NCBI GenBank assembly: GCA_002698265.1
Contig: NZVX01000033.1
Span: forward strand, 1-39,186
Length of the DNA stretch: 39,186 bases
From: Chloroflexota bacterium
GTDB lineage: Bacteria; Chloroflexota; Dehalococcoidia; Lucifugimonadales; UBA3495
Direction of reading: 5' to 3'
Below are positions 2,512 to 18,740 of this stretch, piece after piece. The notes under the pieces are model-generated. The model was not told the origin of the DNA and did not search any database. It worked only from the letters and a program-made list of their open reading frames with translations. The stretch's first letter is position 1. Each line of letters opens with the position of its first letter. The position numbers and the translations under genes were made by a program.

Positions 2512-3464
2512 TCACAGGCTGTCTTGAGACCATTTTTCGATCTCAATGAAGGCGTTCGCCGTTTTCCGGCGAGTACCTTCCGCTGACTCCAGAGTCCTGT
2601 CAAGGAATCCTTTGCCGGATTTGGCGCCCAATTCACCTTTATTCACCTTCTCTTGGATAAGCTTCATCACATCCATCGATGAATCGATGTCCGGTAGGAC
2701 GCGTTGGACACCGGCCAATATCAAATCCCACCCGATTCCATCCTCCACGCGCTCAAAGATCCCGGCTGCTACCCAGTTCAAGGGGTGGCCCGTTTTCAGC
2801 ACCGTGTCGATATCCTCGGGGCTGGCGATACCTCGCTGGACCATCGATAGGGCTTCCTTCATCAATGCCACTTCAAGGCGGATGGCGATGAATCCTGGGA
2901 TCTCTTTTTGGACCATCGCCGGTTTTTCCCGACTTTAGTCAGGGCCTGAAAAACGATTCCCACCGTCTCATCGGAGGTCTGTTCGGTGCGGACGACCTCC
3001 ACCAGCGGAGACAGATAGGACGGCCTCGTATAGTGGGCAACCAATACCCGGTCTGGGCGCCGGGTTACCTCGGCAAAACGGCTGGGAATGATCGTTGAAG
3101 TGCTGTTTGCCAAGATCGTCCGATCCGGACAGAACGCGTCCAGGTCTCTAAAGATCTGCCGCTTCAGGTCAAGGTTCTCGTAAACCGCCTCCAAAACCAC
3201 GTCGGAGTCCCGTGACGCTTCTTCCAAGGACGTGGTGGTCGAAATTTTCGTCAGGGCTGCCTGGGCGCGGGCCGGCTCTTCCATCTCCAGCGCCACTAAT
3301 CTATCCAAGTCGGCCTTGATGAAATCCATACCCCTCTGAAGACTCGATTCTGTAGTGGAATTAAGATGCACCTAGTAACCCGCCAAGCCCAAAGTGGGGG
3401 CGATTCCGTGACCCATATTCCCGGCGCCGATAACCGCAATGGGTTTTACATCATTGAATTCCAT
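2512..3464 (-). pseudogene. 3-hydroxyacyl-CoA dehydrogenase, broken by a stop and a frameshift
   Basis: The pieces add up to a typical NAD-dependent 3-hydroxyacyl-CoA dehydrogenase of about 317 residues. The N-terminus (from ATG 3464) carries the Rossmann motif GAGNMGHG. It runs to LGLAGY, then an in-frame TAG at 3374-3372 stands where family members usually have a charged residue (GYEVHL-like). The same frame continues through ANSTSTIIPS and VAHYTRPSYLSPLVEVV. At about 2930 one base is missing: restoring a C in AAAAACCGG gives KNPAMVQKEIPGFIA, and the C-terminal domain follows in the shifted frame to TGA 2512. The length of 953 nt plus one is divisible by three, which fits a single lost base. 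Either a decayed gene or sequence errors. Confidence 0.85.
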
Positions 3465-3644
3465 GTCTACTCCCAATTCTTGGCTGACTTGGCATTCCAC
3501 TCAGAAATCTCAGGCACCACAACCAGACTGGTGAGCGCCGGATGCGCCTTGCCCATGTGTTAGTATTGGGTCGACTGCCAGGCGTGGAGGTAAACACGTC
3601 CGGCTTCGCTAAAAAGAAAATAAGCTGGCAGGAGTGAACAAACC

Positions 3645-9378: not shown

Positions 9379-10174
9379 ATGCACCCAATACGGCGCGTCG
9401 GCGTTTTCTGGCCGGTGGTCTCGGTCTTCTTGCTATTGGTGGCTGCCTGCTCGTCCGGTGAAAACGGGACTTCCACCGCCACTGCTCCTGGCACCTCCGG
9501 TTTCCTCTACCGCAGCAATAAACTGATGTTCGATCGTAAGACAGAGATCCTCTGGCACCAATTCCGGGGCGTGCCGGCGGTTGGCCGTTGGTGGGCAGCG
9601 GTATGGAATTGGGAATCCTGCCCATGACTCTCACGATCTGGTCCGATTGGGTGGCCGAACACCCCGACACCACCGTCCTGGACTTGGGCACTGGAATCTA
9701 TCCCGAAGATGCTTACACCCCTGAGTCGCAGAACGATTCAGCATATTTTGGATACCGGTTCCAGAAGGACACCATATTCCGGTACCGGAACGAAACACCG
9801 ACCTAGGAGCCAAAGAGCAGGTGGTTGGACTAACGTTCGGTGACGAAGCCAGGGCCTATCCGGTGTCTCTGTTCGACGGCCTGTCTGTGATCAACGACAC
9901 TCTGGTAGGCAGAGAAGTTGTCATCTTCGCCGCCGGCGAAGCGACCGGAGTCCGGGCCTACGAGCGCGACGGCCATGTCTTCACTCGGTCCCAATCGGCC
10001 ACCAGTCAGGCGGTGACACTCACGGATGAGAACAGCGTGGCCTGGCAGGTTGGCGAAAATACTCTAGTGAGCCTAGATGGCTCTGGCGAGACCCTGAACC
10101 AGGTCTCCAGCCGCGATTCCTACTGATTCGGCTGGTACGCCTTCTACCCCCACGCCGGCATCTTCGCGCCTTAG
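9379..10174 (+). pseudogene. DUF3179 lipoprotein, broken by two frameshifts and a stop
   Basis: The first frame (ATG 9379) encodes a lipoprotein signal ending LVAACS (lipobox Cys), followed by SGFLYRSNKLMFDRKTEILW, typical of DUF3179 proteins. The frame moves by -1 at about 9580 (restoring one C in GGCCGTTGG gives GPLVGSGMELG). It moves by -1 again at about 9800 (before DLGAKEQVVGLTFGDEARAYP). A TGA at 10124-10126 stands where the FWFAWYAF-type C-terminal motif should have Trp; the frame then continues FGWYAFYPHAGIFAP to TAG 10172-10174. All family blocks are present in order, so the gene was recently intact or the sequence contains errors. The function of DUF3179 is unknown. Confidence 0.8.
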
Positions 10175-15916: not shown

Positions 15917-17092
15917 CTACTCGCCAGTGTAGCGGATGTCTTCGCTCTTGATTTCGCCCATGGCACGCCAGGCGAACCGCTCGCTGTAGGCGTTTTCGAC
16001 TCCCTCGAGGGCGTCGGCCGCCAAGCCACCCAAGACCGGGGCGAACTTGAAGGCGTGTCCGCTCCCGCCGGTAACCACGACCAGCCCATGCCGCTCGGGG
16101 TCACGGGCGATCCAAAAGTCCCCGTCCCAGGTGTCGCAGTAGAGACACATCTTCGTCCCATGGAATGGTAGCGACGCTAAAGACGGCAACGACTGGGCCA
16201 GAAACTCCCGGCAGTGGGCTTCTTGCTCGGGGCTGATAACCCTTTCGGCGTCGGCGTGGACCCGTGTGCCCCGCCCGTGGTTGGCCATCTTGAATACGCC
16301 CTCAGAGTTAGCGGGAAAGCCGTACCAGCCGCTGCGTGGAATGTCCGCGCCCCAAGGTGGGAAGGACGGCGCCCGGTAGGCATCGGGGTCCTGAGGCTTA
16401 AAGTAGAAGATGGGCTGACCCACCGGCCACATGCGGTCTGATAACTCCGGAAGCAAGATCGGCGTCCAGACACCAGCCGCCACCACCACCCACTCAGCCC
16501 GCAGTTCAGTCCCATCAGAAGAGACCGCCCCAACAACCTTGTTGCCCTCTTGTAGCAGCCCAGAGGCAGTGAAGCCGGTCACGATGGAAACACCGGAATT
16601 CTGGGCGTCCAGGGCCAAGCTGGCCGTTATCTCACCGGCCTCAGCCCACCCGGCCCTTGGATTGAAATAGCCGTCAATGTAGTGGCCCGAGTTCCAACGG
16701 GGATACTTGTTTGCCAGGTCGCCGGGAGCCAGTTTCTCCAGAGGGAAGCCCCGACCGGTCAGGAGGCTGTAGGAGTCTTGCTCGAATGACCCGACGGCCA
16801 TGGGGACCGAGGACATGAGCAGAAAGCCGTCTTCGTGGTAGAGTTCCCGGCCCCAATTGGTATTCCAACGATGCCAGCCGTCGATGGCGTCGGCGCCGAG
16901 GGAGGAGTATAGCCCGTCGCCGCCGTAGTCCATGCGCACCATGCGGCTGAGGTCGTTGGAGGCCGCCAGAGGATGCGGGACCGGGCCGGGGTCGGCAACA
17001 GTGACCCGGTACCCCCGTTGTTGTAGCTCCCGGGCAGCGGTCAGGCCGAAGACACCGGCCCCAATGACCAACACCGAGTTGTCAGTGGCCAC
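15917..17092 (-). CDS. FAD-dependent oxidoreductase, monomeric sarcosine oxidase-like
   Basis: This 391-residue flavoprotein of the DAO family has the FAD-binding GAGVFG near the N-terminus. Its C-terminal TKMCLYCDT and GGSGHAFKFAPVLGGLAAD blocks are characteristic of monomeric sarcosine oxidase and N-methyltryptophan oxidase. Cys316 is at the position of the covalently FAD-linked Cys315 of monomeric sarcosine oxidase, so covalent FAD is likely. It would oxidise an N-methyl or secondary amine to imine with release of peroxide. The start is GTG at 17092 with only a weak GGA upstream. It lies 54 nt after the DsbA-like gene on the same strand, possibly the same operon. Confidence 0.87.
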   Translation of the reverse strand: MATDNSVLVIGAGVFGLTAARELQQRGYRVTVADPGPVPHPLAASNDLSRMVRMDYGGDGLYSSLGADAIDGWHRWNTNWGRELYHEDGFLLMSSVPMAVGSFEQDSYSLLTGRGFPLEKLAPGDLANKYPRWNSGHYIDGYFNPRAGWAEAGEITASLALDAQNSGVSIVTGFTASGLLQEGNKVVGAVSSDGTELRAEWVVVAAGVWTPILLPELSDRMWPVGQPIFYFKPQDPDAYRAPSFPPWGADIPRSGWYGFPANSEGVFKMANHGRGTRVHADAERVISPEQEAHCREFLAQSLPSLASLPFHGTKMCLYCDTWDGDFWIARDPERHGLVVVTGGSGHAFKFAPVLGGLAADALEGVENAYSERFAWRAMGEIKSEDIRYTGE

Positions 17093-17146: not shown

Positions 17147-17752
17147 TCACGCTGCTGCGGACTTGATGGCCTCCCGCAGTTCTTCGATGCTGATGTCGCC
17201 CCCGTGGAGTTCGCCGCCGATCATGTAGGTAGGTGTGCCGGTCACGCCCTTCTCTCTGGCCGCTTCATCTTCCCGAAGAACGGCCTCCCGGTACTCGCCG
17301 GACTCGATACGGGACCCCAGGTCTGTCCAGTCCATGCCAGCAGATTCGGCGATTCCCTTCAGAACATCCAGATCGTTGAGATCGGAATCAGACTCCCAGT
17401 ACGCCGCAGCGGCCAGGTGGTGGAACTCCCCATCTCTGCCCTGCTCCTTGGCGTAGGCAGTTACTTGGTGGGCTCTCAAGGCATTGGGGGACCAGCGGGG
17501 GCGGCGCATGACCAGACCAACCTCCTTGGCCCGTTCTTGCATCTCCGGATTAAGCTCCGTCTCGGTCTCTCCGTCGAATTGACGGCGTGGCATTCCTTCG
17601 GAAGGATGGCCCGGCTGCCGTATGAAAGGTCTGCGGTCCACCTGAAAGGACATCTCTTTGGCCAACATGTCGAGCCTGCCCAGGCCGATGTAGCAATAAG
17701 GTCAAGTGTAGTCATACCAGACGGTGACGCTGACGGCGGTGGATGTGGTCAT
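17147..17752 (-). CDS. DsbA/FrnE-like thiol oxidoreductase with in-frame TGA at the first redox cysteine (candidate selenoprotein)
   Basis: This gene encodes a 201-residue thioredoxin-fold protein of the DsbA/FrnE group if TGA is read through. From ATG 17752 it reads MTTSTAVSVTVWYDYT, then TGA (17704-17702), then PYCYIGLGRLDMLAKEM. FrnE-like relatives have CPxCYIG here, so TGA replaces exactly the first Cys of CxxC, giving U17-P-Y-C20. The rest is intact: helical insertion (HQVTAYAKEQGRDGEF, AAAAYW) and the cis-Pro loop GVTGTPTYMIGG (Pro174). GAGG lies 6 nt before the ATG. A SECIS-like hairpin follows the TGA. The gene is 37 nt after an esterase gene. The alternative is an ordinary nonsense mutation (TGC to TGA). 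No selA, selB, selD or tRNA-Sec is in the window. Confidence 0.7.
17670..17704 (-). promoter_or_regulatory. Possible bacterial SECIS hairpin after the in-frame TGA
   Basis: Counting from the T of TGA (17704) as 1, TCG (17-19) and GCCT (20-23) pair with AGGC (28-31) and CGA (33-35) around a single bulged T, closing a GGGC loop (24-27). The loop begins 20 nt after the TGA and starts with G, which fits the published bacterial SECIS pattern (loop 16-37 nt downstream with G in the first two loop positions). GC-rich coding DNA makes such hairpins by chance, so this is supporting evidence only. Confidence 0.4.
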
Positions 17753-17789
17753 GTCATACCTCTTCAGGAGAAATCCAAGTTCGGGCTGG

Positions 17790-18740
17790 TTAGTCGGCCG
17801 CGCTGGGCGCGCCGGAGCGGGCGAAGGCCTTGCGCAAGGCAGCGGACGCTTCGTCAACAGCTTGCTGGCTCTTGTCCACCACGGCGTTCATGTTGAAGAA
17901 GCCGTGGATCACACCGTCATACCGGGTAGTCGTGGTTTCAACTCCAACCTCACTGAGGCGTTTGCCGTAAGCCTCGCCTTCGTCACGAAGCGGGTCAAAT
18001 TCAGCCGTGATCACCAGGGCGGGCGGCTGCCCGGCCAGGCTCTTGGCCTGGGCCGGAGCGGCGTAGGGGTTGGAGGCATCCGCACTACCGCTCAGGTAGT
18101 GGTCCCAATACCACTCCATGACGACCTTGGTCAGGCCGTAGCCCTCGGCGTTGTCCTGGTATGAGACGGTCGTGAAACTGACATCGGTCACGGGATAGAT
18201 CAGGACCTGCAAGGCGATATCAAGGCCGCCCCGGTCCGCCGCCATCAAACACATCGCCGCGGCCAGGTTACCGCCGGCGCTGTCTCCACCCACGGCCAGC
18301 CGGGAACCGTCTGCATTGATGCTGGCGGCGTTCTCCACCGCCCAGATGGTCGCGGCCCAGCAGTCGTTGGCGGGGCCGGGAAACTTGGTATCAGGCGCCA
18401 GACGGTAGTCCACCGATACGACCACACACTTGCCGCCCACGCACAGGTCACGGGCAGTCGCGTCGGCCGAGTCCAGGTCGCCTACAACCCAGCCGCCGCC
18501 GTGGTACCAGGCCAGGATGGGGAAGGGGCCATTGCCCTCAGGAGTATAGATGCGTACCGGGACATCGCCATCTGTGCTGGGGATATTTCGATTTTCCACC
18601 TTGGCCACTTCAGGGCCGGGAGCGCGCGGGCGGTTCCTGGCGTTGGCTCTGGCTTCGTCAGGGCTGACGGTATTTGCCGGAGGCAAACCCAGGGCAGCCA
18701 CGCTCTCCATCACTTTTACTATCTGTGGGTCTAATGGCAT
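17790..18740 (-). CDS. Alpha/beta hydrolase, hormone-sensitive-lipase family esterase
   Basis: This 316-residue carboxylic ester hydrolase has the oxyanion-hole motif HGGGW (80-84) and the nucleophile elbow GDSAGG (Ser154). Asp249 (FDPLRD) and His279 (VIHGFF) complete the triad. That combination defines the HSL (family IV) esterases, which act on short acyl esters in the cytoplasm. AGAGG lies 5-9 nt before the ATG. A TATAAT box is found upstream, and the DsbA-like gene follows 37 nt downstream, so this is probably the first gene of a small operon. Confidence 0.92.
   Translation of the reverse strand: MPLDPQIVKVMESVAALGLPPANTVSPDEARANARNRPRAPGPEVAKVENRNIPSTDGDVPVRIYTPEGNGPFPILAWYHGGGWVVGDLDSADATARDLCVGGKCVVVSVDYRLAPDTKFPGPANDCWAATIWAVENAASINADGSRLAVGGDSAGGNLAAAMCLMAADRGGLDIALQVLIYPVTDVSFTTVSYQDNAEGYGLTKVVMEWYWDHYLSGSADASNPYAAPAQAKSLAGQPPALVITAEFDPLRDEGEAYGKRLSEVGVETTTTRYDGVIHGFFNMNAVVDKSQQAVDEASAALRKAFARSGAPSAAD

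Follow-up and report, generated by a model that had tools for sequence, protein, structure and literature searches.

The DsbA-like gene and its surroundings

We analysed a stretch of 39,186 nucleotides (the window) from contig NZVX01000033.1, part of a metagenome-assembled genome (MAG) of a Chloroflexota bacterium. Its minus strand carries a DsbA-like frame between a flavoprotein gene and a hydrolase gene (Table 1). The frame reads MTTSTAVSVTVWYDYT*PYCYIGLGRLD..., the asterisk denoting a TGA at codon 17 that is its sole interruption and occupies the position of the first cysteine of a CPYC motif. An earlier interpretation made without database searches (the sequence-only reading) had proposed the gene as a candidate selenoprotein with UxxC in place of CxxC, and the gene features on which it drew are all present: a ribosome binding site ahead of the ATG, 16 codons before the TGA and 184 sense codons after it, Cys20, the T173-P174 loop, and the UxxC motif itself in the form U-P-Y-C.

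Table 1 Features of the probable selenoprotein locus within the window
Feature	Position	Strand	Remarks
FAD-dependent oxidoreductase gene (DAO; N-methyl-L-tryptophan oxidase / monomeric sarcosine oxidase-like)	15917..17092	-	54 nt downstream of the DsbA/FrnE-like gene
DsbA/FrnE-like gene, very probably encoding a selenoprotein	17147..17752	-	201 residues with Sec17; UPYC motif; PF01323 and FrnE matches
Bacterial SECIS-like hairpin	17670..17688	-	Stem TCG-GCCT / AGGC-T-CGA, loop GGGC, one unpaired T on the 3' side
In-frame TGA, very probably read as selenocysteine (residue 17)	17702..17704	-	TGA in 16/16 orthologues and 12/12 paralogues
Shine-Dalgarno-like GAAGAGGT	17753..17770	-	Upstream of the ATG; several relatives also show one
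Alpha/beta hydrolase gene (Abhydrolase_3)	17790..18740	-	37 nt upstream, same strand

The protein matches the Pfam family DSBA (PF01323) with an E-value of 1.7e-32 (113 bits against a cut-off of 25.6). Its closest solved relative by sequence is FrnE of Deinococcus (5cnw/5cp1; 3.8e-18), in which the first cysteine of a CPWC motif aligns with the TGA. Besides residue 17, Cys20 is the only cysteine position, and by eye no signal peptide is apparent. The NCBIfam model of the Rcas_1661 (seleno)lipoprotein was considered and set aside, its match being weak and below the cut-off. An AlphaFold model built from three sequences had a mean pLDDT of 51, too low for a fold search.

Conservation of the TGA in orthologues and paralogues

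Orthologues occur in 11 of the 12 genomes of the genus, with 65-82% identity to the window protein, and every copy has TGA at this codon. Across the order, five genomes outside the genus gave a match below 1e-50; they belong to two families, and their copies are 49-53% identical and likewise have one TGA each at the same codon. Clade A, formed by the window orthologues, accordingly has TGA in 16/16 members, five of them from outside the genus, with the motifs UPYC, UPFC or UPWC. The named database copies of the orthologue come from Chloroflexi/Dehalococcoidia MAGs, and no plasmid record matched. One clade A member (L022, G004:C56:1196-1796) keeps the TGA and is frameshifted after about residue 50.

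In a second DsbA-like paralogue (clade B, motif UPWC), this codon is likewise TGA in 12/12 genomes of the genus, that of the window (L032) among them. The two clades together give TGA in 28/28 cases, with no TAA or TAG, and the base that follows is always C. The argument that a stop codon would hardly fall on a redox cysteine by chance is thereby borne out; TGC, which the sequence-only reading had suggested looking for in close relatives, does not occur at this codon in the orthologues.

A third paralogous clade (motif CPHS; L024, L033, L038-L041) uses TGC or TGT at the aligned codon, so that the pairing of Sec with Cys usually asked of a selenoprotein family is found, and found within the same genus. 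One further copy of this third paralogue (L037, G007:C27:31559-32161) has TGA at the same codon and the motif U-P-H-S where its same-genus relatives have C-P-H-S; it is possibly a monothiol UxxS selenoprotein.

A SECIS-like hairpin with frozen synonymous codons

The sequence-only reading had also described a hairpin of the bacterial SECIS kind with a G-starting loop 20 nt after the TGA. The stem begins 13 nt after the TGA, and the loop, GGGC, opens at 20 nt. Across the clades the hairpin begins 12-13 nt after the TGA, the loop at 20 nt is GGGC, GGGT, GGTC or GGCT, and the hairpin sequence hardly varies among relatives.

The evidence for this element is comparative. Where two clade A sequences encode the same residue, their codons are identical with a frequency of 0.949 over codons +5 to +11 against 0.532 in the rest of the gene (sequence pairs), and the corresponding figures for clade B are 0.933 and 0.580. 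In both Sec clades no 7-codon window elsewhere in the gene scores as high as this stretch, nor did any of 20,000 permutations. In the Cys clade, by contrast, identity at these codons is 0.286 against 0.464 elsewhere, with only three codons scorable. The arginine at +9 is AGG in 16/16 clade A genes, a codon that accounts for 7 of the 124 arginine codons elsewhere in them. Taken together, the comparison makes a strong case that the synonymous codons of the hairpin are frozen in the Sec clades but not in the Cys clade.

The fold energy of the single gene is unexceptional, the window copy having z = -0.65 against codon-preserving shuffles. Single-sequence values range from -0.04 to -1.13 in clade A, and most clade B members lie near -2.8. 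In the window copy codon +5 is ATC instead of GTC, which removes the outermost G-C pair. The hairpin of the UPWC paralogue in the same genome (L032, G000:C40:8685-9224) is more stable, with z near -3.

Selenocysteine machinery in the genus and in the window's genome

No selenocysteine machinery is visible in the window, and the sequence-only reading had proposed a search of the same genome for selA, selB, selD and tRNA-Sec. At the level of the genus all four are present: tRNA-Sec with the anticodon TCA in 8 of the 12 genomes, SelB above the cut-off in 9/12, SelA in 9/12, and SelD in 12/12, in every case with a TGA in frame at the enzyme's active site. The window's MAG contributes a SelD that reads HCAGUAAKL. 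That MAG, which is 78.5% complete, yielded neither selA nor selB nor a complete tRNA-Sec, the last being represented by fragments.

The matches that did appear in this MAG were set aside. A tRNA-Sec match above the cut-off (47.3 bits) proved to be tRNA-Ser(TGA); the top selB match, below the cut-off, is a frame of 395 aa that lies next to genes for tRNA-Thr and tRNA-Tyr and fits EF-Tu; all selA matches fell far below the cut-off.

These absences would be expected if the species had lost its Sec machinery and the gene were a relic here, functional in relatives alone. A second MAG of the genus (G004, 75% complete) also lacks selA, selB and tRNA-Sec, and loss of the trait in a single species therefore keeps some small probability. 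For the window's species we consider such a loss very unlikely. Its assembly is incomplete at the relevant places: contig C53 (29,244 bases) ends inside the gene that adjoins selB, 158 nt short of the selB stop position in the related genome G009, and the 14-kb selA neighbourhood of G009 finds only short, scattered matches and has no real counterpart. At one contig edge, C26:1-47, the sequence matches nt 29-75 of tRNA-Sec with 100% identity. Moreover, three TGA-containing genes (selD and the two dsbA paralogues) keep otherwise open frames. Judged by these contig ends and matches, the missing selB, selA and whole tRNA-Sec are best explained as assembly gaps.

The C26 piece (L111, G000:C26:1-47) is a partial copy and not the gene itself, because the sequence on its other side is not tRNA; it resembles the remnants that elements leave behind on integrating into tRNA genes. 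The same MAG has another partial copy (L112, G000:C10:17936-17972), G003 has two complete tRNA-Sec genes (L062 and L067), and several tRNA-Sec genes lie near contig ends. Mobile elements appear to use the tRNA-Sec gene as an integration site.

Lesion, sequencing error or alternative decoding

A pseudogene with a nonsense mutation, or an assembly error at a true TGC or TGT codon, would be a natural first thought, since the window does hold other damaged genes, as the sequence-only reading had pointed out. A 3-hydroxyacyl-CoA dehydrogenase gene (2512-3500, minus strand) is interrupted by TAG at 3374-3372 and shifts frame near 2900; its breaks are a genuine lesion or an assembly error, selenocysteine being ruled out by the TAG and the frameshift. 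A DUF3179-like gene (identified by eye, about 9440-10126, plus strand) is frameshifted and apparently truncated at its start, and the part expected to carry its Sec motif appears to be absent; DUF3179 is among the families listed as selenoproteins, with the motif UxxC/T (PMC9312934). For the DsbA-like gene, however, conservation of the TGA in relatives refutes a lesion or sequencing error: independent assemblies down to 49% identity have it at the same codon, the frame is otherwise open and conserved, and the synonymous codons after it are frozen. We give this explanation practically no weight.

Decoding of UGA as Cys or Trp by a suppressor tRNA or a genome-wide reassignment, independently of SelB and SECIS, would also keep the protein active by placing a residue at a Cys position and would suit a MAG with no visible Sec machinery, but it is scarcely credible, given that tRNA-Sec is the only tRNA with a TCA anticodon in the loci scanned, that ordinary TGA stops end genes here, including the selenoprotein gene itself, that the Cys paralogues use TGC or TGT, and that the conservation of the hairpin would be left without a reason.

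A probable selenocysteine-containing oxidoreductase

The TGA, the hairpin codons and the fold family are conserved, and the genus has the Sec machinery; together with the Sec/Cys pairing and the TGA in the genome's own selD, this supports the selenoprotein interpretation. We put at about 95% the probability that the gene product is a thiol-disulfide oxidoreductase of the DsbA/FrnE kind, with a predicted cytosolic location, that its nucleophile is selenocysteine (U17-P-Y-C20) and that the UGA is recoded through SelB, tRNA-Sec and the hairpin. In the cell, SelB and tRNA-Sec would insert Sec at the UGA under the direction of the hairpin, which lies just inside the coding region and has a loop that starts with GG about 20 nt downstream of this codon. 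The selenolate of U17 would then attack disulfides or other oxidised thiols of substrates, and Cys20 would resolve the resulting selenenylsulfide. The reaction presumably runs in the reductase/isomerase direction.

An apparent pseudogene of an uncultured Chloroflexota lineage is thus very probably a selenoprotein gene, and the genus would have at least three genes for selenoproteins, namely selD and two dsbA-like paralogues. Gaps in a MAG at selB and tRNA-Sec can falsely suggest that an organism makes no use of Sec. The set also offers defined organisms and clean Sec/Cys paralogues with which to ask how selenium benefits FrnE-type oxidoreductases.

The neighbouring flavoenzyme

The DAO-family flavoprotein gene adjoins the selenoprotein gene in 10 of the 11 genomes of the genus that carry the latter, and the alpha/beta hydrolase gene is the conserved upstream neighbour in most members. 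Beside the more distant orthologues the DAO-family neighbour is absent, and the link is therefore limited to the genus in our sample. It is conceivable, if rather improbable, that the UPYC selenoprotein serves the MTOX/sarcosine-oxidase-like flavoenzyme as a dedicated redox partner, for example by reducing its thiols or handling damage caused by its H2O2, and that a third DsbA paralogue of the genus switches between CxxS and UxxS. Such a partnership with a flavoenzyme would be a use of Sec-DsbA that has not been described before.

Comparison with known systems

DsbA-like UxxC selenoproteins have been known since 2005 and are an established family. The Sargasso Sea survey described them (as COG2761; PMC1088965), and the GOS survey found them as 'DsbA 1' (PF01323), at higher abundance in marine samples (PMC2398784). 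They are also on record from sequenced bacteria (PMC1794560), and recent reviews list them (PMC9312934, PMC13188914), PMC13188914 under the name 'DsbA-like protein form 1'. The novelty is therefore smaller than the sequence-only reading implied (PMC1088965, PMC2398784, PMC13188914), and the window protein is another, well-supported case of a known family. It shares with that family the PF01323 fold, Sec in the first position of CxxC, a downstream SECIS-like hairpin and an occurrence in marine bacteria. Compared by description, it differs in belonging to a defined Chloroflexota lineage in which two paralogues with Sec, one UPYC/UPFC and the other UPWC, exist in parallel and a flavoenzyme is the neighbour. 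A literature search for SAR202 or Chloroflexi with DsbA selenoproteins, whose scope left out most subscription journals, returned no paper on the lineage. What is new here is the assignment to a Chloroflexota (Dehalococcoidia) lineage, the two Sec paralogues in parallel and the conserved flavoenzyme gene next door.

FrnE proteins have been described as thiol oxidoreductases of the cytoplasm with a role in the tolerance of oxidative stress (PMC8945050). In the Deinococcus enzyme a C-terminal CXXXXC motif has been proposed to regenerate the active site; it is present in many FrnE proteins and absent from some (PMC8945050), and is therefore not strictly defining for FrnE. The window protein resembles FrnE of Deinococcus radiodurans (DR_0659; 5cnw, 5cp1) as a DsbA-family oxidoreductase, predicted to be cytosolic, with U17 at the first Cys of CPWC. 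The CP(W/F)C active site of the subfamily is found here with Sec replacing its first Cys; at the third residue, Tyr joins Trp and Phe as a further variant. The Deinococcus protein, in contrast, has Cys and not Sec, is longer and carries the CXXXXC motif that the window protein lacks.

The SECIS element of the E. coli fdhF type is a hairpin in the coding region near the UGA, with a small apical loop starting with GG and one bulged base on the 5' side of the upper stem. The hairpin described here, a putative binding site of SelB, likewise lies in the coding region near the UGA and has one bulged base in the upper stem and a small apical loop starting with GG, which reads GGUC in the orthologues at greater distance (L114-L117). 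It differs from the fdhF type in that the bulged base of clade A lies on the 3' side and not the 5' side.
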